A stretch of 34,010 nucleotides of DNA from positions 1-34,010 of the IMG/VR virus record IMGVR_UViG_3300020172_004712, one strand, 5' to 3'. The notes beneath the pieces were generated by a model. The model was not told the DNA's origin. It was given only the letters and a program-made list of their open reading frames with translations, and ran no database searches. This DNA is from a virus. Below, piece by piece: positions 1,091-24,743 of the stretch. A program made the position numbers and the translations under genes. How positions within the stretch are numbered: position 1 is the first letter of the stretch; each line of letters opens with the position of its first letter.

Positions 1091-1405
1091 TTATTTTTTA
1101 TTTGGATTACTTTTTGGAGCAACCTTTTTTGTTGGTTTAGTGCCACTATGATTCTTGGATACTTGACCCTTTGGTCTACCAGGCTTTCTAGCCGGTGCTG
1201 TGGTCTTTGCTTTAGGGTTAATATCATTAGAATCGGCGGGCGTAATCTTGATATCTTTAGGGGTCGAATTGACAGAAGTGCTTGGAGTCATCCAAATAAT
1301 TGGCTTCTCTTCCTTAGCAATACTCTGATCATCTAAGTCGTATCCATCAATTTTTGTTTTCTTTTTAAATAGTATTTTTCTTGCTATTTTTCTAATTAGT
1401 TTCAT
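1091..1405 (-). CDS. Basic protein with an AT-hook-like motif (104 aa)
   Basis: Residues 1-18 are basic (RKIARKILFKKKTK), the middle is polar and proline/threonine-rich, and the C-terminal third carries RKPGRPKGQ, which matches the GRP core of AT-hook DNA minor-groove binding motifs, followed by a lysine- and proline-rich tail. The composition suggests a disordered DNA-binding protein. It is the last gene before the terminator at 1050-1078. The start has AAAAGGA about 12 bases upstream, rather far. AT-hook function is an inference from a short motif; a generic basic tail is the alternative. Confidence 0.6.
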   Translation of the reverse strand: MKLIRKIARKILFKKKTKIDGYDLDDQSIAKEEKPIIWMTPSTSVNSTPKDIKITPADSNDINPKAKTTAPARKPGRPKGQVSKNHSGTKPTKKVAPKSNPNKK

Positions 1406-3262: not shown

Positions 3263-3778
3263 TTAGTAGGTACTAAAATCCGATTCCTGATAGGAACCTT
3301 TTTCTTCTCTAAACGCAGCTACTTGCATGGCCTGCATTTTGTCCATTAGTTTTCTAGCTGATTCTGATGCTATTCTAGCTGATGTTTCCATTGCCTCAGC
3401 TAGGCTCATAATTGCTTCACAGGTGATCATTTCAGTATGCTGTGACTCTGCTGCTGCCATGGCTGAGGCTTCTCTTTCAGCTTCATTCTTTCCAGCTCTA
3501 TTTGATTTATAGACTCTTTTATAATTACCTTCTATGATCTTATATTGTGCTCTGGACATTCCGGCAAAGCGCGCTGCTCTACCATAGACGTTAGATGTGC
3601 GAGCAACCAGTGATGCAATAGTATCTATTCCTAGATCTATGATGTCAACCTCTGGAATTTCTACAAAATATTTACTACTTTTTTCTACGTCAGCGTATGC
3701 TTCGATAACCTCTTTTAATTGAGGTCCAAGAAAATTCTGCAATAGCTCTTGCAGTTTTTCCATTGATTGTAGGTTCAT
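3263..3778 (-). CDS. Mostly helical protein of unknown function (171 aa)
   Basis: Nearly the whole chain is predicted helical. The conserved-looking centre is ARFAGMSRAQYKIIEGNYKR (residues about 69-88), followed by an alanine- and glutamate-rich stretch (NEAEREASAMAAAESQ). The start overlaps the sigma factor stop as TAATG and has a GGAGAAG ribosome site, so it is co-translated with the sigma gene. Size, helical content and location among replication genes would fit a small recombination mediator or sigma partner, but no motif proves either. A second methionine lies at residue 6. Confidence 0.7.
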   Translation of the reverse strand: MNLQSMEKLQELLQNFLGPQLKEVIEAYADVEKSSKYFVEIPEVDIIDLGIDTIASLVARTSNVYGRAARFAGMSRAQYKIIEGNYKRVYKSNRAGKNEAEREASAMAAAESQHTEMITCEAIMSLAEAMETSARIASESARKLMDKMQAMQVAAFREEKGSYQESDFSTY

Positions 3779-4638
3779 TAATTCTTCTCCATATTAATTA
3801 GCATTGCGTATTCACTCAGATCATTTTCTATAATTAAATCTTTTACTTTATTTTTAATCTTAGATAAATGCTCTCTAACTGTATTCGGATGTTCATTAAC
3901 TTTTTGAGATATTTCACTGGATCGTTGTCCATCTACATATCTCCATTTTAAAAGCTGTCTTTCTTGCACTGTTAGTCTATCAAATGGCGCAATGTTTTTC
4001 TCGCCTAAGACCCAAAATTCATCAATTTTATCTGCAGCTAATAACTGTTCCATACTATACTCCACTGGATCTGCTTTAAAACCAATTACATAGTTCTCAT
4101 CGCCCTCATCATTAGTGGCATCGTCGTCCAATAATGGGAATGTCTTCCTGCCTAATTGATCAATAAGAAATGTATCTACGTTCTTTTTTAACAAATAAAA
4201 GAAATAGCTATATAAGAAACCACTAAAGGGAATTGGACCTTTAGCTGAATCCTTCCTTTCGTATCTTCCTATGCATTGAAAGAAGGTCATATATACTGTC
4301 TGTCTAATATCCTCTTCATCTCCGTACCTTTTTGCCATATAATGAATACCTCTCATGCATTCATTTATTACTCGCATATTGGATCCACTCATTTTATTCT
4401 TCATGAGAGCAAAGCGTGTTCCTGAATCCTTGATGAACAAAGAAATAAACCTTCGTATGTCATAGTCATTCAGGTTGAACTTTCCATAATATAATAGTGA
4501 AATATATTTAGTTAAAAAATTACTGAATACCTTTAATAATTCTTCTTGTGCTTTTGCTGAACCCTTTTTGGCCTTAGCGATTAGGTCTTGCATTTCATTC
4601 TCTTCTAAAGAGTAATATTGCTCCTTGTAAGCTGTCAT
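3778..4638 (-). CDS. Phage RNA polymerase sigma factor (sigma-70 family-like)
   Basis: Predicted to redirect host RNA polymerase to phage promoters. The N-terminal AKAKKGSAKAQEELLKVF (residues 21-38) looks like the start of region 2. DEEDIRQTVYMTFFQCIGRY (107-126) matches region 2.1-2.2. LTVQERQLLKWRYVDGQRSS (222-241) followed by EISQKVNEHPNTVREHLSKI (242-261) is a region 4 helix-turn-helix. Between the two region 2 parts lie about 65 extra residues, so region 2 seems split by an insertion. The acidic stretch 171-182 may be a linker. The start forms an ATGA overlap with the nuclease gene. Which promoters it serves is unknown; the late, virion block is the natural guess. Confidence 0.8.
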   Translation of the reverse strand: MTAYKEQYYSLEENEMQDLIAKAKKGSAKAQEELLKVFSNFLTKYISLLYYGKFNLNDYDIRRFISLFIKDSGTRFALMKNKMSGSNMRVINECMRGIHYMAKRYGDEEDIRQTVYMTFFQCIGRYERKDSAKGPIPFSGFLYSYFFYLLKKNVDTFLIDQLGRKTFPLLDDDATNDEGDENYVIGFKADPVEYSMEQLLAADKIDEFWVLGEKNIAPFDRLTVQERQLLKWRYVDGQRSSEISQKVNEHPNTVREHLSKIKNKVKDLIIENDLSEYAMLINMEKN

Positions 4639-5201
4639 TTTTTACCTTCCCAGTTAACTATGTACTGACTATAAAAAACCTTTATGTCTTCGTAGAAGAC
4701 AATTTGAGGAACTTCTATCTCAGCCATAAAATTCTTTGCGTCGTTTGAGTACTTACTTATGACGCATGTCATTTTTTTAAATTCATCAGGATAATACCTT
4801 TTAAATCTTTTTAATTTAATTTTACTTTTATCATCTAGATAGCCTTTAATCTCTACCCATTCACCATTTCGTTCTAGAAAAAAGTCAGGAGTATAACCCT
4901 TTGTTCCCCTTTTTATTGGGAAAGAAAAAACAGTAGGCTCAAATTTAAATTCTATTTTATAGATATTTAGGATTCTAACAAAGTTAGCTTCCCAGCTGGA
5001 TCTAACATTAAGTTCTATATCTTTCCTGAATCCAGTCTTAGTGTATTGGTACGCGTTACCCTTTTTTCTTGTGAAGACCCCATCATCCTCTAGGATTACT
5101 TTATCGATCTGCCTGTTTCTGATGTTATTCAAATTAGGTTGTTTTTTAAAAGAAGATTTTTCCAAAAAAAAGTCTTCTGCCTTGACAACATGTAGTTCCA
5201 T
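4635..5201 (-). CDS. PD-(D/E)XK nuclease (188 aa)
   Basis: A small endonuclease-like protein. Motifs in order: RSSWEANF with E71, YTPDFFLE with D106 and VEIKG with E117 and K119, the classic E-D-ExK arrangement. This layout resembles the TnsA / T7 endonuclease I-like branch found in many phages, suggesting a role in recombination junctions, host DNA breakdown or DNA end processing. The ATG at 5201 is chosen because AAGGA lies seven bases upstream and the promoter at 5235-5263 would place transcription start near 5228. An upstream GTG at 5243 overlaps the promoter and has no ribosome site. It is the first gene of the sigma-factor operon. Confidence 0.8.
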   Translation of the reverse strand: MELHVVKAEDFFLEKSSFKKQPNLNNIRNRQIDKVILEDDGVFTRKKGNAYQYTKTGFRKDIELNVRSSWEANFVRILNIYKIEFKFEPTVFSFPIKRGTKGYTPDFFLERNGEWVEIKGYLDDKSKIKLKRFKRYYPDEFKKMTCVISKYSNDAKNFMAEIEVPQIVFYEDIKVFYSQYIVNWEGKK

Positions 5202-5234: not shown

Positions 5235-5263
5235 ATTATACACTAAAAAATAAAAATATGCAA
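5235..5263 (-). promoter_or_regulatory. Leftward promoter for the nuclease-sigma operon
   Basis: On the minus strand TTGCAT (5263-5258), 17 bases, then a perfect TATAAT (5240-5235). Start of transcription is expected near 5228, giving a leader of about 27 bases with an AAGGA ribosome site before the ATG at 5201. Its -35 box forms one half of an inverted repeat with the rightward promoter. Confidence 0.75.
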
Positions 5264-5269
5264 AACGAC

Positions 5270-5298
5270 TTGCATTACCACTAAGAAGGAAGTATACT
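5270..5298 (+). promoter_or_regulatory. Rightward promoter of the lone plus-strand gene
   Basis: TTGCAT (5270-5275), 17 bases, then TATACT (5293-5298). This is the mirror image of the leftward promoter; the two -35 boxes are ATGCAA and TTGCAT separated by six bases. The expected start of transcription is about 5304-5306, right at the ATG at 5306, so the mRNA may be leaderless. AGAAGGA at 5284-5290 would be upstream of the transcript and too far from the ATG (15 bases). Confidence 0.65.
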
Positions 5299-5305
5299 AA
5301 TCACC

Positions 5306-5470
5306 ATGAACACATTAACACACATCATCAACACAGCAATTGAAACCATTGACAACGAGATTATCGAGGACTTGGTTGTAGACCTCGGTTATGACTACGG
5401 CGATGCCGTTAAGGTAGTCACAGAGTTCAATGATTTCGATTTTGCTATCGATTCAGATTCAACTTTCTGA
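5306..5470 (+). CDS. Very acidic 54-aa protein, only plus-strand gene
   Basis: The frame opens MNTLTHIINTAIETIDNEII and ends FDFAIDSDSTF. Nine aspartates and four glutamates face one lysine and no arginine, so net charge is about -12. Codons favour C- and G-ending forms (GAC, ATC, GAG, GTC), unlike the A/T-ending neighbours, as in highly expressed genes. It has its own promoter, a probable leaderless start and its own terminator. No family is recognised. Small acidic phage proteins often act as DNA mimics or inhibitors of host proteins, or as antitoxins; here that is inference from charge, size and placement. Reading frame, promoter and terminator agree, so the gene itself is likely real. Confidence 0.7.
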   Translation: MNTLTHIINTAIETIDNEIIEDLVVDLGYDYGDAVKVVTEFNDFDFAIDSDSTF

Positions 5471-5497
5471 TTCTTTTTAAAAACTACGTATAGAATT

Positions 5498-5521
5498 GGG
5501 GCTGGGAAACCAGCCCCTTTT
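5498..5521 (+). terminator. Intrinsic terminator of the plus-strand gene
   Basis: GGGGCTGG (5498-5505), a GAAA tetraloop (5506-5509) and CCAGCCCC (5510-5517), followed by TTTT. The perfect 8-bp GC-rich stem with a stable loop lies 27 bases after the stop at 5470 and touches the stop of the convergent nuclease gene at 5522. On the minus strand no good T-run follows, so it mainly stops the rightward transcript. Confidence 0.85.
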
Positions 5522-6325
5522 CTATTTTCTGTAACTATTGTTTTTATTTCTGTAAACACCGGTTGGACAAGCACCTGATTTGGCGTGATCACAGTAAGAG
5601 CACACTCTGCTATTGGCAGTAGGGGTAAAATTTTGATCAACCATTATTTTTTGAATAGTATCAATCAGTTTATTCTTAACTTCTTCAATATCTTCTTCAG
5701 TAAAAAGATGACCTTTTCTTTTTCCAGATCTTAAATAATACAACTCAGCATAGATTTCTTTTTCTGGAAATATATTATGAAGTGCAAGGGCGTATATACC
5801 GAGTTGCAAATTTGAGTGCACGTGTTTCTGTGCAACTTCCCATTTACCAGTTTTATAGTCTGTTATGTTAACTCTATCGCCAATAATGTCCACCCTATCT
5901 ATAAAGCCAATTATCCTATATGACCCTATGATAAAAGAAAAAGACATTTCCTTATCGTATATGGAAAATTCTTTATCTACATTTTGATCATAGAATTCAT
6001 TTAATATAATTGATCCAACAGAAATAAGATCTGGAGCTATTTCTTGATTTGGATCCCAAATAGGAATATTATTTTTGTATTCTTCCTGAAGTTCATTTAA
6101 GTCTAAGACTTTATTATTCTCTAAGGTATTTTCAAGAACAGCGTGGACGATATTTCCTAGAGCAGCTGGCGCGTTAAACTGTCTTGGTTCTTTCTTAATA
6201 TAAGAGTAGAAGTATCTTGACGGACATTGATCGTACGTATCTATTCTAGAGTATGAAAAATCTACTAAACTTAATTTTTCTAAATCACTTAAGCTATCAT
6301 AATTTTTAATTAATATAGAACTCAA
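5522..6325 (-). CDS. Cas4/RecB-like PD-(D/E)XK exonuclease with Fe-S cysteines
   Basis: Predicted DNA exonuclease. FSYSRIDTYDQCPSRYFY (23-40) with C34 is the N-terminal signature. H61 lies in LGNIVHAVLE, D143 in GFIDRVD, D156 and K158 in ITDYKTG, and Q174 in LQLGIYAL. C242, C245 and C253 in CSYCDHAKSGAC complete a four-cysteine iron-sulfur cluster as in Cas4 and AddB. All catalytic positions look intact. The start is a TTG at 6325 with AGGA seven bases upstream; no in-frame ATG occurs near. It is the last gene of the leftward replication block. No CRISPR array or other cas gene is near, so a role in phage recombination or end processing is more likely than adaptation. Confidence 0.85.
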   Translation of the reverse strand: MSSILIKNYDSLSDLEKLSLVDFSYSRIDTYDQCPSRYFYSYIKKEPRQFNAPAALGNIVHAVLENTLENNKVLDLNELQEEYKNNIPIWDPNQEIAPDLISVGSIILNEFYDQNVDKEFSIYDKEMSFSFIIGSYRIIGFIDRVDIIGDRVNITDYKTGKWEVAQKHVHSNLQLGIYALALHNIFPEKEIYAELYYLRSGKRKGHLFTEEDIEEVKNKLIDTIQKIMVDQNFTPTANSRVCSYCDHAKSGACPTGVYRNKNNSYRK

Positions 6326-16149: not shown

Positions 16150-16842
16150 TTAAATTCCGAATGAACCCCAGTTAATCAAAACTGGTTTTTCATCTACGAT
16201 TGAATTGATATGATCTAATTGATGAAAGGCTCCACCGTCTAGTTGTGAATATCGCTGATGCTTAGAAATTTTATCTTCATCTCTAATATAGCCAAGGTGT
16301 TGCATTACGAGTTTAGAACCAACCCAGTAATTTTTTCTAGCGATCATATCACCTACATAAGTAGGTTCAGATCCACACGCCAGCTGCCTATTATTGAACC
16401 CACCATTTTCTAGGTATCTGAATATTCTAGTACTATTATTTGGTGTCCATAGTTTATCAACTCTATACTGAGTTTCATTCCACATATGATAGAAGCGGAC
16501 ATTCACTACATCAAAAGGAGATGTATTTAAAACATCTCTAATTGGAGCGTCATCTAAATGATAAAGCTTTTCATCGCAGTCAATAGCTACGACCCAATCT
16601 CCAACACTAGCAAATTTTTCCAGATTACCCCAGGCAAAGGCTCTTAATTTTCCTTCATGAACATTGAAAAGTTGTTCAGGTGTTTGAAAAACTTCAGCGT
16701 ACTTTGCTGCTATTTCAGGAGTATTATCAGTTGAACAATCATCTGTAAATATTATTTTATCAACTTGAGTTGACAATCTTTGCAAAACATCTTCCAAAAA
16801 TCTAGAAGATTCATTTCTACCAATCATTTGTGCAATGATCAT
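16150..16842 (-). CDS. Glycosyltransferase, family 2 (GT-A fold), 230 aa
   Basis: Transfers a sugar from a nucleotide sugar to an unknown acceptor. N-terminal IIAQMIGRNESSRFLEDVL followed by IIFTDDCSTDNTPEIA is the nucleotide-binding half. VVAIDCDEKLY holds the DxD-type metal site (DCD). Middle segments such as RIFRYLENGG fit the acceptor part. ATG at 16842 is chosen for its AAGG site; an upstream in-frame extension would read through the 13-bp hairpin at 16865-16897. Substrate and acceptor (virion protein, modified DNA base or host surface sugar) cannot be told. Another GT-2 lies at 18356-19147. Confidence 0.82.
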   Translation of the reverse strand: MIIAQMIGRNESSRFLEDVLQRLSTQVDKIIFTDDCSTDNTPEIAAKYAEVFQTPEQLFNVHEGKLRAFAWGNLEKFASVGDWVVAIDCDEKLYHLDDAPIRDVLNTSPFDVVNVRFYHMWNETQYRVDKLWTPNNSTRIFRYLENGGFNNRQLACGSEPTYVGDMIARKNYWVGSKLVMQHLGYIRDEDKISKHQRYSQLDGGAFHQLDHINSIVDEKPVLINWGSFGI

Positions 16843-16864
16843 TTTTTTTTCCTTACCTTTAAAT

Positions 16865-16897
16865 GAGATTGAGGGGGGTTTTATCCCCCTCAATCTC
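16865..16897. terminator. Perfect 13-bp hairpin, partial terminator or processing site
   Basis: GAGATTGAGGGGG (16865-16877) pairs perfectly with CCCCCTCAATCTC (16885-16897) around a 7-base loop. It lies 37 bases downstream of the 63-aa gene and 23 bases upstream of the glycosyltransferase start. No T-run follows in the leftward direction (next bases ATTTAAAGG), so it would terminate only weakly; stabilising the 3' end of the short upstream mRNA or marking an RNase cut site is equally possible. Confidence 0.7.
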
Positions 16898-17140: not shown

Positions 17141-17545
17141 TTAATTTGATGGATAATTGGTTGCGATATATTCTATCGCATCTTGCATTGTTGATGCAAG
17201 TTTCGTTGCCATATACTTTAGGTAAACTCTGTTCTTATTAGAGTCACAGCAAAAAACTACTGCTGGCTGATTATTGAATTTAGCCCAAGCCAATTCAAAG
17301 TCAGTTCCTATATATGCGCGATCTTGTAACATATATTCTACCAGAATAATATCTGCTCTGCGTTGCATGAACAAATTTTTCTCAACAATTTCTTCTGGTG
17401 TTTCGTACCCTTGATCTACAATAGTAGTTGGATCTAATACGTCATAGCCTGCAAGATGCAGTCCTTTAGTTGCGGATTTACGCCAAAAGCGTCCATAATC
17501 CTCAACCCCCTCAATTGCTCCGGAAAGAAATACTTTAAGCGGCAT
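17141..17545 (-). CDS. Nucleoside 2-deoxyribosyltransferase-like protein (134 aa)
   Basis: A small Rossmann-like protein. Signatures: VFLSGAIEGVEDYGRFWR near the N-terminus, YDVLDPTT (34-41), RADIILVEYM with D65 and YIGTDFELAWA with E84 as the likely nucleophile. These match the nucleoside deoxyribosyltransferase superfamily, which exchanges or removes bases from deoxynucleosides. It may salvage nucleosides or hydrolyse modified nucleotides. The ATG has AGGA eight bases upstream and overlaps the preceding gene by 11 bases. It also contains the internal promoter for the 63-aa gene in its last 60 bases. Confidence 0.78.
   Translation of the reverse strand: MPLKVFLSGAIEGVEDYGRFWRKSATKGLHLAGYDVLDPTTIVDQGYETPEEIVEKNLFMQRRADIILVEYMLQDRAYIGTDFELAWAKFNNQPAVVFCCDSNKNRVYLKYMATKLASTMQDAIEYIATNYPSN
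17170..17199 (-). promoter_or_regulatory. Internal promoter for the 63-aa gene
   Basis: On the minus strand TTGCAT (17199-17194), 18 bases, then TAGAAT (17175-17170), inside the 3' end of the deoxyribosyltransferase-like gene. The -35 box is identical to that of both promoters at 5235-5298 and is likewise paired with an inverted ATGCAA copy, here five bases downstream. Expected start near 17163, leader about 38 bases. Confidence 0.6.
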
Positions 17546-18355: not shown

Positions 18356-19147
18356 TTAATCTCTTTCTATTCCGATATAGTCGCATGCTTTGCGAAATAT
18401 TGCTTGACTTTCTTTAAACTTAGAATCTGCTTCTCCACCAACTGGTGAAGACTTGTGCCAGCTATGGCCAATCGATACACTCCCATCGTAGACTACATTA
18501 TAGCCTAGGTGTCTTGCAAAATAGGAGCACCATGTCTCCTCGTAATAGTGGGGAGTGGGGAGAAAAGCTCCTGCGGCATCCGGATACATTTCTCGGTACT
18601 GTGGGTGATTTGTTAATGCGTTCCAAACTTCTCTGCGGATAAAGTAAGCAGAGCCTGAAACTGTAACACATGGAACTCTGTCTTTATAGAGCTGGTCGTC
18701 AAAATCGCTTTGTCTCCAACCACGATGAGCTGGAGATGTATTAGTACCAACAATTCCCGCATGCGTTATTAATCCATTTTCATCTCTTTGCTTAGGACCA
18801 AGAATATGAATATCTGGATTCTCATCAAAAATTTGTTGAGCTCTTACCATAGAGCTACTAGTCATCCATACGTCAGCATTTAGTAGTGCAATCACGTCAG
18901 AGGAGCCTTCAGCTGCCAATTGATTGCAGGCTCCAGAATATCCTATATTATCATTGTGATAGAATTTATTAATTCTATATCTTTGATAATTATATTTTAA
19001 CCAACTAGCACTGTCGTCCTGCGAACCGTTATCTGCTATATATAAATTCCAAACCTTAGGGGTATCATGTAGATCACTGTGTAGGCAGTCTAAAAACCTA
19101 TTCAGCAATGGTCTTGTATTATAATTAATTACGCACAGATCTATCAA
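18356..19147 (-). CDS. Glycosyltransferase, family 2 (rhamnosyltransferase-like), 263 aa
   Basis: MIDLCVINYNTRPLLNRFL, then LYIADNGSQDDSASWL and NIGYSGACNQLA are the classic GT-2 nucleotide-sugar part. IALLNADVWM carries the DxD-like metal site (NAD). ILGPKQRDENG and SGSAYFIRREVW follow, as in WcaE/rhamnosyltransferase-type enzymes. TTG start at 19147 forms a TTGA overlap with the upstream stop and has GGAG seven bases upstream. Acceptor unknown. With the gene at 16150 it makes two clear sugar transferases within a nucleotide metabolism and repair region. Confidence 0.85.
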   Translation of the reverse strand: MIDLCVINYNTRPLLNRFLDCLHSDLHDTPKVWNLYIADNGSQDDSASWLKYNYQRYRINKFYHNDNIGYSGACNQLAAEGSSDVIALLNADVWMTSSSMVRAQQIFDENPDIHILGPKQRDENGLITHAGIVGTNTSPAHRGWRQSDFDDQLYKDRVPCVTVSGSAYFIRREVWNALTNHPQYREMYPDAAGAFLPTPHYYEETWCSYFARHLGYNVVYDGSVSIGHSWHKSSPVGGEADSKFKESQAIFRKACDYIGIERD

Positions 19148-24286: not shown

Positions 24287-24484
24287 TTATTTGATAGTTG
24301 CTGCACTTTCGGAGTCGCCCATTTTTGTTGCGACTAAACCCTTAACTACACTTATTGCTGCTGCAACAGCTGCTGTAGCTGCTGACTTGATTTCATCAAC
24401 ACCACCAACAGTATATACAGCAATAAAAGCTTGCGCTGCTGTCCAAATAGCTCTTTCTAAAATATCTTTTTGCAATTTATTCAT
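24287..24484 (-). CDS. Holin, r1t-like (65 aa)
   Basis: Predicted inner-membrane pore that triggers lysis. Two hydrophobic segments: ERAIWTAAQAFIAVYTVGG (9-27) and an alanine-rich helix AATAAVAAAISVVKGLVATK (residues 35-54), ending MGDSESAATIK. This order, with W near the start of helix 1 and KGLVATKxGDxxSA at the end, matches r1t-type holins of actinophages. AAGGTAGGT precedes the ATG, the same site as at the 49-aa gene. It sits next to a second membrane protein (24495-24743). No endolysin is seen in the window. Confidence 0.82.
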   Translation of the reverse strand: MNKLQKDILERAIWTAAQAFIAVYTVGGVDEIKSAATAAVAAAISVVKGLVATKMGDSESAATIK

Positions 24485-24494
24485 AGTACCTACC

Positions 24495-24743
24495 TTAGGA
24501 AAAATTCTTTCTAATTAGCTTCTCTATAAGAAGATGAAAAGTTAAACCTAGCCACACTCCTGTGAATATACTTCCTGTTAATTTATTCTCTGTATGTCTC
24601 CAAAAAGCTCTAGTTAATGTTTCGATCTTTTTGGACTTTATAGCATATATATCATACGCTATAATACCAAGGGCTAAACCGCCCCAAGCTATAACCCCAC
24701 TTTTTTTATCATCTTTCTCTAAGATGAGCGGGGTGCCAAACAC
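24495..24743 (-). CDS. Two-TM membrane protein, actinophage lysis-region type (82 aa)
   Basis: Two predicted membrane segments, GVIAWGGLALGIIAYDIYAI (about 16-35) and GSIFTGVWLGLTFHLLIEKL (about 57-76), with ETLTRAFWRH between them. This layout matches small membrane proteins (recalled as DUF7427) near actinophage lysis genes, which may act with the holin. The GTG at 24743 is chosen because the upstream gene stops at 24745; a longer frame to 25025 runs over that gene and is a shadow. The ribosome site is weak, so translation is probably coupled. Confidence 0.65.
   Translation of the reverse strand: MFGTPLILEKDDKKSGVIAWGGLALGIIAYDIYAIKSKKIETLTRAFWRHTENKLTGSIFTGVWLGLTFHLLIEKLIRKNFS

Follow-up and report, generated by a model that had tools for sequence, protein, structure and literature searches.

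The window, by which we mean the whole 34,010-nt stretch of freshwater phage DNA that was analysed, contains a short plus-strand gene for a very acidic protein of 54 aa (Table 1). A first-pass annotation made from the sequence had described this gene as the only one on the plus strand in 34 kb, and the description holds, as each of the other plus-strand ORFs that reach 50 aa shares sequence with a minus-strand ORF that also reaches 50 aa. The coordinates, frame, length, count of 13 acidic residues and single lysine given in that annotation were all correct on re-reading; in detail, the protein contains 9 D, 4 E, one K and no R, for a net charge of -12. Its gene was also said to use more C/G-ending codons than its neighbours, and the fraction of G/C-ending codons (GC3), at 0.50, does exceed the maximum of 0.48 found for 46 minus-strand ORFs (mean 0.27, sd 0.064), a set of which a few may be spurious. 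The gene converges on an exonuclease gene and diverges from a gene for an endonuclease or Holliday-junction-resolvase-like protein, behind which lies a sigma-factor-like gene; a DnaE gene is also nearby. The endonuclease ORF, called mechanically, starts at 5243, and its likely start is the ATG at 5201, which follows AAGGAT. In a 126-kb relative (G001) few ORFs are on the plus strand: in a tiled layout, there are four other isolated ones (68–110 aa) and one cluster of four at 123.3–125.5 kb.

Table 1. Coordinates of the acidic-protein gene, its signals and its neighbours in the window.
Feature	Position	Strand	Basis or remark
CDS, 54-aa acidic protein	5306..5470	+	dN well under dS; same site in 85 of 87 assessable contigs
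Gene end TTC-TGA (terminal Phe codon, stop) and following T	5465..5471	+	invariant among relatives
-35 element TTGCAT of predicted leaderless-type promoter	5270..5275	+	position; conservation of TTG at 17 nt from the -10 (18 in L045)
-10 element TATACT	5293..5298	+	ends 7 nt before the ATG; predicted transcript start at or beside 5306
Divergent promoter TTGCAT-17-TATAAT	5235..5263	-	faces the endonuclease and sigma-factor genes
Palindrome ATGCAA-N6-TTGCAT over the -35, operator candidate	5258..5275		arms covary between relatives
Intrinsic terminator, 8-bp stem GGGGCTGG-GAAA-CCAGCCCC-TTTT	5498..5521	+	stem, GAAA loop, T run
Convergent neighbour, PD-(D/E)XK exonuclease, RecB/Cas4-like	5522..6325	-	PDDEXK_1 5.5e-31
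Divergent neighbour, endonuclease or Holliday-junction-resolvase-like	4635..5201	-	phrog_9019 2e-15; Phage_endo_I below cut-off
Phage RNA polymerase sigma-factor-like protein, next behind the endonuclease	3778..4638	-	9e-08; Sigma70_r4_2 at its cut-off

The 54-aa protein is too short and too variable for direct searching, and relatives were therefore sought through the adjoining exonuclease. Searching with the window exonuclease and keeping the best 80 of 284 yielded 80 contigs; a search with a distant exonuclease, under the same limit of the best 80 of 284, added 11 more, so that the resulting 91 contigs are a part of the existing relatives. Four contigs (L065, L078, L089 and L159) were unassessable because of contig ends and were dropped. 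Among the 87 that were left, 85 have the gene at the same place and in the same orientation, convergent with the exonuclease gene, presence being scored as an ORF of 50–90 codons ending in Phe. The two exceptions are L081, in which the gene and the end of the exonuclease gene are missing and the exonuclease is joined straight to the promoter region, and L105, which was counted as absent and in which the start ATG reads ACG. Seventeen viral contigs encode close relatives of the window protein, with 80–100% identity. All eight longer records have one copy of the gene, and a separate search located the divergent endonuclease gene in 42 loci.

Comparison of the window gene with three close relatives gave dN values of 0.00–0.04 and dS values of 0.10–0.34. 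When 11 family members, each 58 aa long, were compared pairwise, dN was below dS, or dS was undefined or saturated (21 pairs), in 54 of the 55 pairs. From these sequence comparisons we judge the whole acidic protein to be under purifying selection, and the ORF is confirmed as a real, conserved gene belonging to a family in related phages. The ORF is short and has no database family, as a spurious or non-functional ORF might be, but dN well under dS, a terminator and a promoter or Shine-Dalgarno sequence that are kept, and presence in nearly all of the assessable contigs make such an origin vanishingly improbable. The first-pass annotation had made its claims hang on conservation of the frame and its acidity in related phages, and had proposed a homolog search with synteny; frame and acidity are conserved, and the synteny search places the gene at one site beside the exonuclease. 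That annotation had noted none of three further features described here: conservation of the neighbourhood, a palindrome over the -35 element and a gene end that is always TTC-TGA. Among the roles it had suggested were a DNA mimic and an RNA polymerase inhibitor, both of which are weighed below.

The gene had been credited with its own promoter, placing the mRNA start at the ATG, and with a clean GAAA-loop terminator. Comparison supports both features: the -10 element ends just upstream of the ATG in an architecture kept in relatives, and the terminator hairpin likewise has downstream counterparts in the relatives. A generic sigma-70 promoter scan of the window did not list the plus-strand promoter, because TTGCAT agrees with TTGACA at three of six positions where four are needed. 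Given this low score, the support for the promoter is its position and conservation rather than its match to the consensus. Perfect copies of TTGCAT-N17-TATAMT occur only twice in the 34 kb, as the plus-strand promoter and as its divergent partner; when up to two mismatches were allowed there were 20 matches in the window, compared to 18.5 expected by chance. In each of 38 relatives the gene is followed by a hairpin with a stem of 6 bp or more. Its stem sequence varies, with 33 different arm strings that in part reflect unequal detected lengths, and the distance from stop codon to hairpin ranges from 6 to 31 nt.

The palindrome over the -35 element differs in sequence from clade to clade and nevertheless stays symmetric, as in ATGCAA-N6-TTGCAT, TCACAAC-N4-GTTGTGA, GCTACAAC-N4-GTTGTAGC and others. 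For 23 distinct regions, obtained from 25 rows with the leaderless type of promoter, complementarity of the arms was 0.66 at the true centre, compared to 0.14–0.35 at 12 slid centres. Some rows, e.g., L052, L056, L067 and L075, have no clear palindrome. In the window's clade the mirrored arm doubles as the -35 element of the divergent promoter. The idea that the palindrome is merely two back-to-back -35 boxes holds in that clade and fails in other leaderless-type rows, as judged by a test for an exact TATAAT at a spacing of 16–18 nt. Because the palindrome keeps its symmetry while changing its sequence, and is not always a pair of -35 elements, the simplest reading is that it is a candidate operator for a dimeric regulator.

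The control region is, in the window, common to the acidic-protein gene and the endonuclease and sigma-factor genes. Small acidic early proteins that bind RNA polymerase or a sigma factor exist in other phages, T7 gp2 and T4 AsiA being examples. The acidic protein might thus be a ligand of RNA polymerase or of a sigma factor, acting in host shut-off or as a helper of the phage sigma factor, and made early along with that factor from the divergent promoter pair. The searches made found no sequence or fold match to such proteins, and we consider this role unlikely.

Two types of expression signal were found among the relatives. In the window's branch, the start codon is preceded at 7 nt (6 nt in L099) by a -10 element that matches TATAAT at 4–6 of 6 positions, and a TTG-type -35 element is found 17 nt further upstream (18 nt in L045). 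The remaining rows lack such a -10 element and have an AAGG, AGGA or GAGG core 6–14 nt before the ATG (13 of 13). A maximum-likelihood tree of the exonuclease with 39 rows has a branch, with support 98/93, that parts 26 leaderless-type rows, including the window, from the 13 Shine-Dalgarno-type rows; in this count L045 and L099 were reclassed by hand to the leaderless type after reading their sequences. When uncorrected labels from the rigid rule were placed on the exonuclease tree, there were three changes of expression type. Given the split at the 98/93 branch, a single gain or a single loss of leaderless expression, maintained ever since, is the probable history on this unrooted tree. Rows of the leaderless branch often still have a purine-rich stretch upstream of the -10 element, outside the predicted transcript (judged by eye), and it looks as if the -10 element had arisen just behind an old Shine-Dalgarno sequence, on what is an unrooted tree. 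In these phages a single gene thus seems to have changed its mode of initiation once, between Shine-Dalgarno-led and leaderless, and to have kept the change; such a natural series makes the benefit of leaderless expression testable.

A -10 element that ends 6–8 nt before the start codon, together with a message devoid of a Shine-Dalgarno sequence, was found in the window and 25 relatives, among which L083 and L084 qualify only if ATT is taken as the start. In L083 and L084, and in contigs sharing the stretch, the leaderless start position is occupied by ATT, in contrast to the ATG of L090, a close relative; their TATAAT is overlapped by an ATG. Passages in PMC4633059 state that an ATG or GTG at the mRNA 5' end suffices for leaderless translation in mycobacteria, and that ATG or GTG at the 5' end is necessary for leaderless initiation in M. 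smegmatis. Translation in L083 and L084 may start at the ATG overlapping TATAAT, on a message from another promoter. As in the leaderless small genes of mycobacteria, the promoter spacing would start the mRNA at the ATG, and the message would be free of a Shine-Dalgarno sequence; the present case differs in being a phage gene whose start is predicted from sequence, and in having Shine-Dalgarno-led relatives outside the branch. The host-type promoter fits early expression.

The host of the window phage is likely actinobacterial, since a WhiB gene is present in two of eight longer relatives and Streptomyces phages are among the top matches of the window DnaE. WhiB was not found in G001–G003, the three records closest to the window. 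A passage of a paper on phages of Nanopelagicales describes WhiB as exclusive to Actinobacteriota (PMC10202952). The window DnaE has less than 60% identity to any phage record, and the top matches listed are a faecal phage contig (38.7%) and Streptomyces phages. A search of bacterial genomes with the exonuclease gave a single weak Bacteroidetes match, which was uninformative as to host.

Family searches gave little. At E 0.01 the window protein matched nothing in Pfam or PHROGs; when 25 members were compared to PHROGs, the best match (E 0.0041, one member) was to a family of unknown function. A tblastn search of 50,697 phage records returned nothing better than partial matches with E of at least 2 for the window protein, and no match at E up to 1 for two distant members. 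The best E in a profile search of the PDB was 0.21. Neither the protein nor its gene end was described among the matches listed from open-licence papers. The acidic protein family appears new, while its kind, i.e., a small acidic phage protein with its own promoter, was already known.

The structural model of the window protein has helices at residues 3–25 and 31–41 followed by an unstructured acidic tail (mean pLDDT 72.1, below 50 at residues 49–54), and the model of a distant member has an extra, short third helix (mean pLDDT 71.7). Structure searches with these medium-confidence models returned no match at E of 0.001 or less, and VIA-align Z scores did not exceed 5.3. No Pfam SSB match appeared, whether with the window protein or in the family lists of the 25 members, and the models are all-helical, giving no sign of an OB-fold. 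Nor were anti-restriction mimics of the Ocr or ArdA type among the family and fold matches listed, the latter from a medium-confidence model.

The nearest approach to a known family was to the Pfam UBA/TS-N domain (PF00627), which gave matches in 5 of 25 members. The best of these (E 1.4e-4) scored 22.1 bits against a curated cut-off of 22.4 and covered positions 1–21 of 37. Membership in this family was rejected, the cut-off being unreached and the three-helix domain not spanned. A weaker proposal is that the protein is a UBA/TS-N-like adaptor whose helix-loop-helix binds a host factor in the way that RuvA domain III engages RuvB and the N-domain of EF-Ts engages EF-Tu. A helix-loop-helix, a DLxxLGFxxxxAV-like motif and the near-threshold Pfam score are shared features, and EF-Ts and RuvA domain III occupy rows 2 and 3 of the Foldseek PDB list. 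Those rows have E above 2, however, and the VIA-align results are led by unrelated proteins; neither method gave significant support for a three-helix UBA fold, for which the models (pLDDT about 72) show two and three helices, respectively. The part of the profile that matches leaves out the third helix, the family has a long first helix and an acidic tail, no member scores above the cut-off, and the window protein itself has no UBA match. Such an adaptor role is very unlikely.

The distribution of charge bears on the proposal that the protein is a DNA mimic. By this proposal the acidic helices would form a charged rod that blocks the DNA channel of a host nuclease or restriction enzyme in the manner of T7 gp5.9, lambda Gam or Ocr; the target might be, e.g., a host end-resection helicase-nuclease, with phage ends being spared. 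T7 gp5.9 inhibits RecBCD by mimicking DNA, and is a parallel coiled coil, according to passages in PMC9836394. There are resemblances: gp5.9 has 52 aa and is strongly acidic, and its gene adjoins an exonuclease gene near a DNA polymerase gene, as the window gene adjoins an exonuclease gene near DnaE. In the window protein, moreover, the net charge is spread along the length, with -2 for the first 17 residues, -6 for the middle and -4 for the tail. Across 37 distinct proteins of the family, however, the mean net charge is -0.7 for the first 17 residues, -3.4 for the middle and -5.9 for the C-terminal tail. As the family-average acidity lies mainly in the tail, with the first 17 residues near neutral, the mimic proposal is somewhat disfavoured. 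In addition, a middle Lys is kept in 33 of 38 genes, and mimicry by a rod leaves the invariant terminal Phe, described below, without an explanation. There is no detectable homology to gp5.9 (hhalign probability 0.1%, one aligned column), gp5.9 ends in ...NGTS, and the window gene has its own promoter and strand. Overall, a DNA mimic is rather doubtful.

When 37 family proteins were aligned, the only invariant columns were one Ala and the terminal Phe, which is the last residue in 37 of 37 sequences even though tail length varies. Each of the 38 distinct genes, picked without requiring a terminal Phe, encodes this residue with TTC and stops with TGA. TTCTGAT is present in 84 of 85 contigs; T after TGA is ordinary, being found in 32 of 50 TGA-ending genes of these phages. 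TTC-TGA is found in all 20 clusters formed at 80% protein identity, for which the chance is about 8e-10 for TTC, assuming independence. Two other conserved Phe columns are mixed, with 16 TTC and 19 TTT in one and 16 of each in the other. Among 25 amino-acid columns, each shared by at least 25 members, only the Met and terminal Phe columns use a single codon. In the exonuclease genes of these 38 contigs the stop codon is TAA in 31 cases, TAG in 7 and TGA in none. The endonuclease genes, where located in the same contigs (26; the script mislocated the start in some rows, e.g., L052, L056, L067 and L075), stop with TGA in 23 cases, TAA in two and TAG in one, and TGA as such is therefore not rare in these phages. 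The endonuclease excess of TGA may arise because the stop codon overlaps the ATG of the next gene, as is seen in the window. Gene stops in G001 are TAA in 62 cases, TGA in 34 and TAG in 12.

SSB genes, whose products have a known essential Phe tip, were used as a yardstick. Thirty Bacteroidota loci gave 29 SSB ORFs (L253–L281, with L252 unrecognised), a small set from related genomes, and 27 of the 29 end in Phe. Among these 27, the Phe codon is TTC in 20 and the stop is TGA in 17. Of 605 ordinary ORFs taken for comparison, 26 have Phe as their last residue; in 10 of these it is encoded by TTC, and in 10 the stop is TGA. The difference in TTC use was significant (20/27 versus 10/26, Fisher p 0.013), and the TGA excess in this small SSB set was not (17/27 versus 10/26, p 0.10). 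Genes with an essential Phe tip thus appear to lean toward TTC likewise, far less than does the acidic-protein family. Our guess is that the choice of TTC avoids a UUU-U slip before the stop codon. The fixed TTC-TGA, weakly mirrored in SSB genes, makes it testable why genes with an essential terminal Phe pick that codon and stop.

A role of the peptide does not account for the invariance of TGA, and part of the conservation may therefore be at the RNA or DNA level. Carried further, UUCUGA before the terminator would be a seed or regulatory end, the transcript acting partly as a small RNA or undergoing UGA-specific termination, and the terminal Phe would be a by-product. The constancy of TTC-TGA in every distinct gene and cluster, and the lack of TGA stops in the adjoining exonuclease genes, speak for such an element. 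Against it are the purifying selection across the whole protein, the frequency of TGA stops in the endonuclease genes, the ordinariness of the following T, the variable distance between stop codon and hairpin, and the fact that no target was found; an element of this kind is quite unlikely. Stop read-through or frameshifting at TTC-TGA was considered as well and rejected: in 6 of 38 genes TAA or TAG comes right after TGA, and the +1 extensions differ in sequence and length as judged by eye.

The terminal Phe is invariant in an otherwise drifting tail, which suggests that the tail tip is a working part of the protein. By analogy with SSB and T7 gp2.5, we tentatively favour, at well under even odds, an early docking protein expressed from a host-type promoter, in which a helical core carries an acidic tail with a terminal Phe that acts as the tips of those proteins do. 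Host RNA polymerase would start at the ATG and produce an mRNA of about 215 nt that ends at its own hairpin; being leaderless, this message would suit an actinobacterial host well. The product, of 54–68 aa across the family and probably abundant, would combine a small helix-loop-helix core with a flexible acidic tail that has to end exactly at Phe. The tail, with the carboxylate of the terminal Phe, would enter basic pockets of host (or phage) DNA replication and repair proteins. Docking might result in competition with SSB or in recruitment of replication and repair proteins to phage DNA, and the core might add specificity or dimerise.

Several observations are consistent with docking. Just before the terminal Phe, all 38 genes encode D, E, S, T or N, with D in 28 of them. 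The adjoining genes encode an exonuclease, a resolvase-like endonuclease, a sigma factor and DnaE. Tail residues 49–54 are of low confidence in the window model, and the TTC lean of SSB genes points the same way, more weakly. The C-terminus of T7 gp2.5 is ...EADEDGDF, and its terminal Phe is essential for strand displacement according to a title cited in PMC9917605. For the SSB C-terminus (DDDIPF), a passage in PMC5872125 suggests that an arginine of DnaG forms a salt bridge with the carboxylate of the terminal Phe. In common with these proteins, the family has a flexible acidic tail with an obligatory Phe as its last residue.

Other observations argue against docking. The family tips, e.g., DSTF, DSDF, PVTDF and NSEF, differ from the SSB tip and do not fit D-D-[IL]-P-F; they lack IPF and are mostly DF, with TF, NF, SF and EF also found. 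The last five residues contain no acidic residue in 3 of 38 genes (L047, L064 and L091) and only one in 18 of 38. The family proteins are much shorter than SSB and gp2.5, from which binding is predicted by analogy, and no OB-fold, or other significant fold or family match, was found. The SSB control was small and from related genomes, the invariance of TGA goes beyond a role of the peptide, the ATT starts of L083 and L084 are not expected to work in leaderless translation, and WhiB was not found in the three records closest to the window.

A stricter version of the docking reading is that the protein is a free-standing SSB tail, i.e., nothing but an SSB- or gp2.5-like acidic-Phe tip on a mini helical core, made early from a leaderless message and rewiring host replication and repair. 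UUC-UGA would then be locked in place since the exact C-terminus or UGA-dependent termination is itself the active feature. This version is doubtful. If the tail reading is true, the family would represent a phage route to hijack the SSB interaction hub.

Other observations were made in passing. An SSB-like protein encoded by a 194-kb relative (L154:1408-1833, minus strand) ends in SIPSSF, a terminal Phe that does not follow an acidic stretch. Near the left end of the window, 449-739 and 1091-1405 (minus strand) encode small, very basic proteins with net charges of +19 and +17, respectively. Small proteins with hydrophobic stretches, holin-like in appearance by eye, are encoded at 24287-24484 and about 24495-24740 (minus strand). 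Two glycosyltransferase family 2 genes (16150-16893 and 18356-19147) and a gene with a weak nucleoside deoxyribosyltransferase-like match (17141-17545), all on the minus strand, sit among nucleotide-metabolism genes and may constitute a DNA-modification set.
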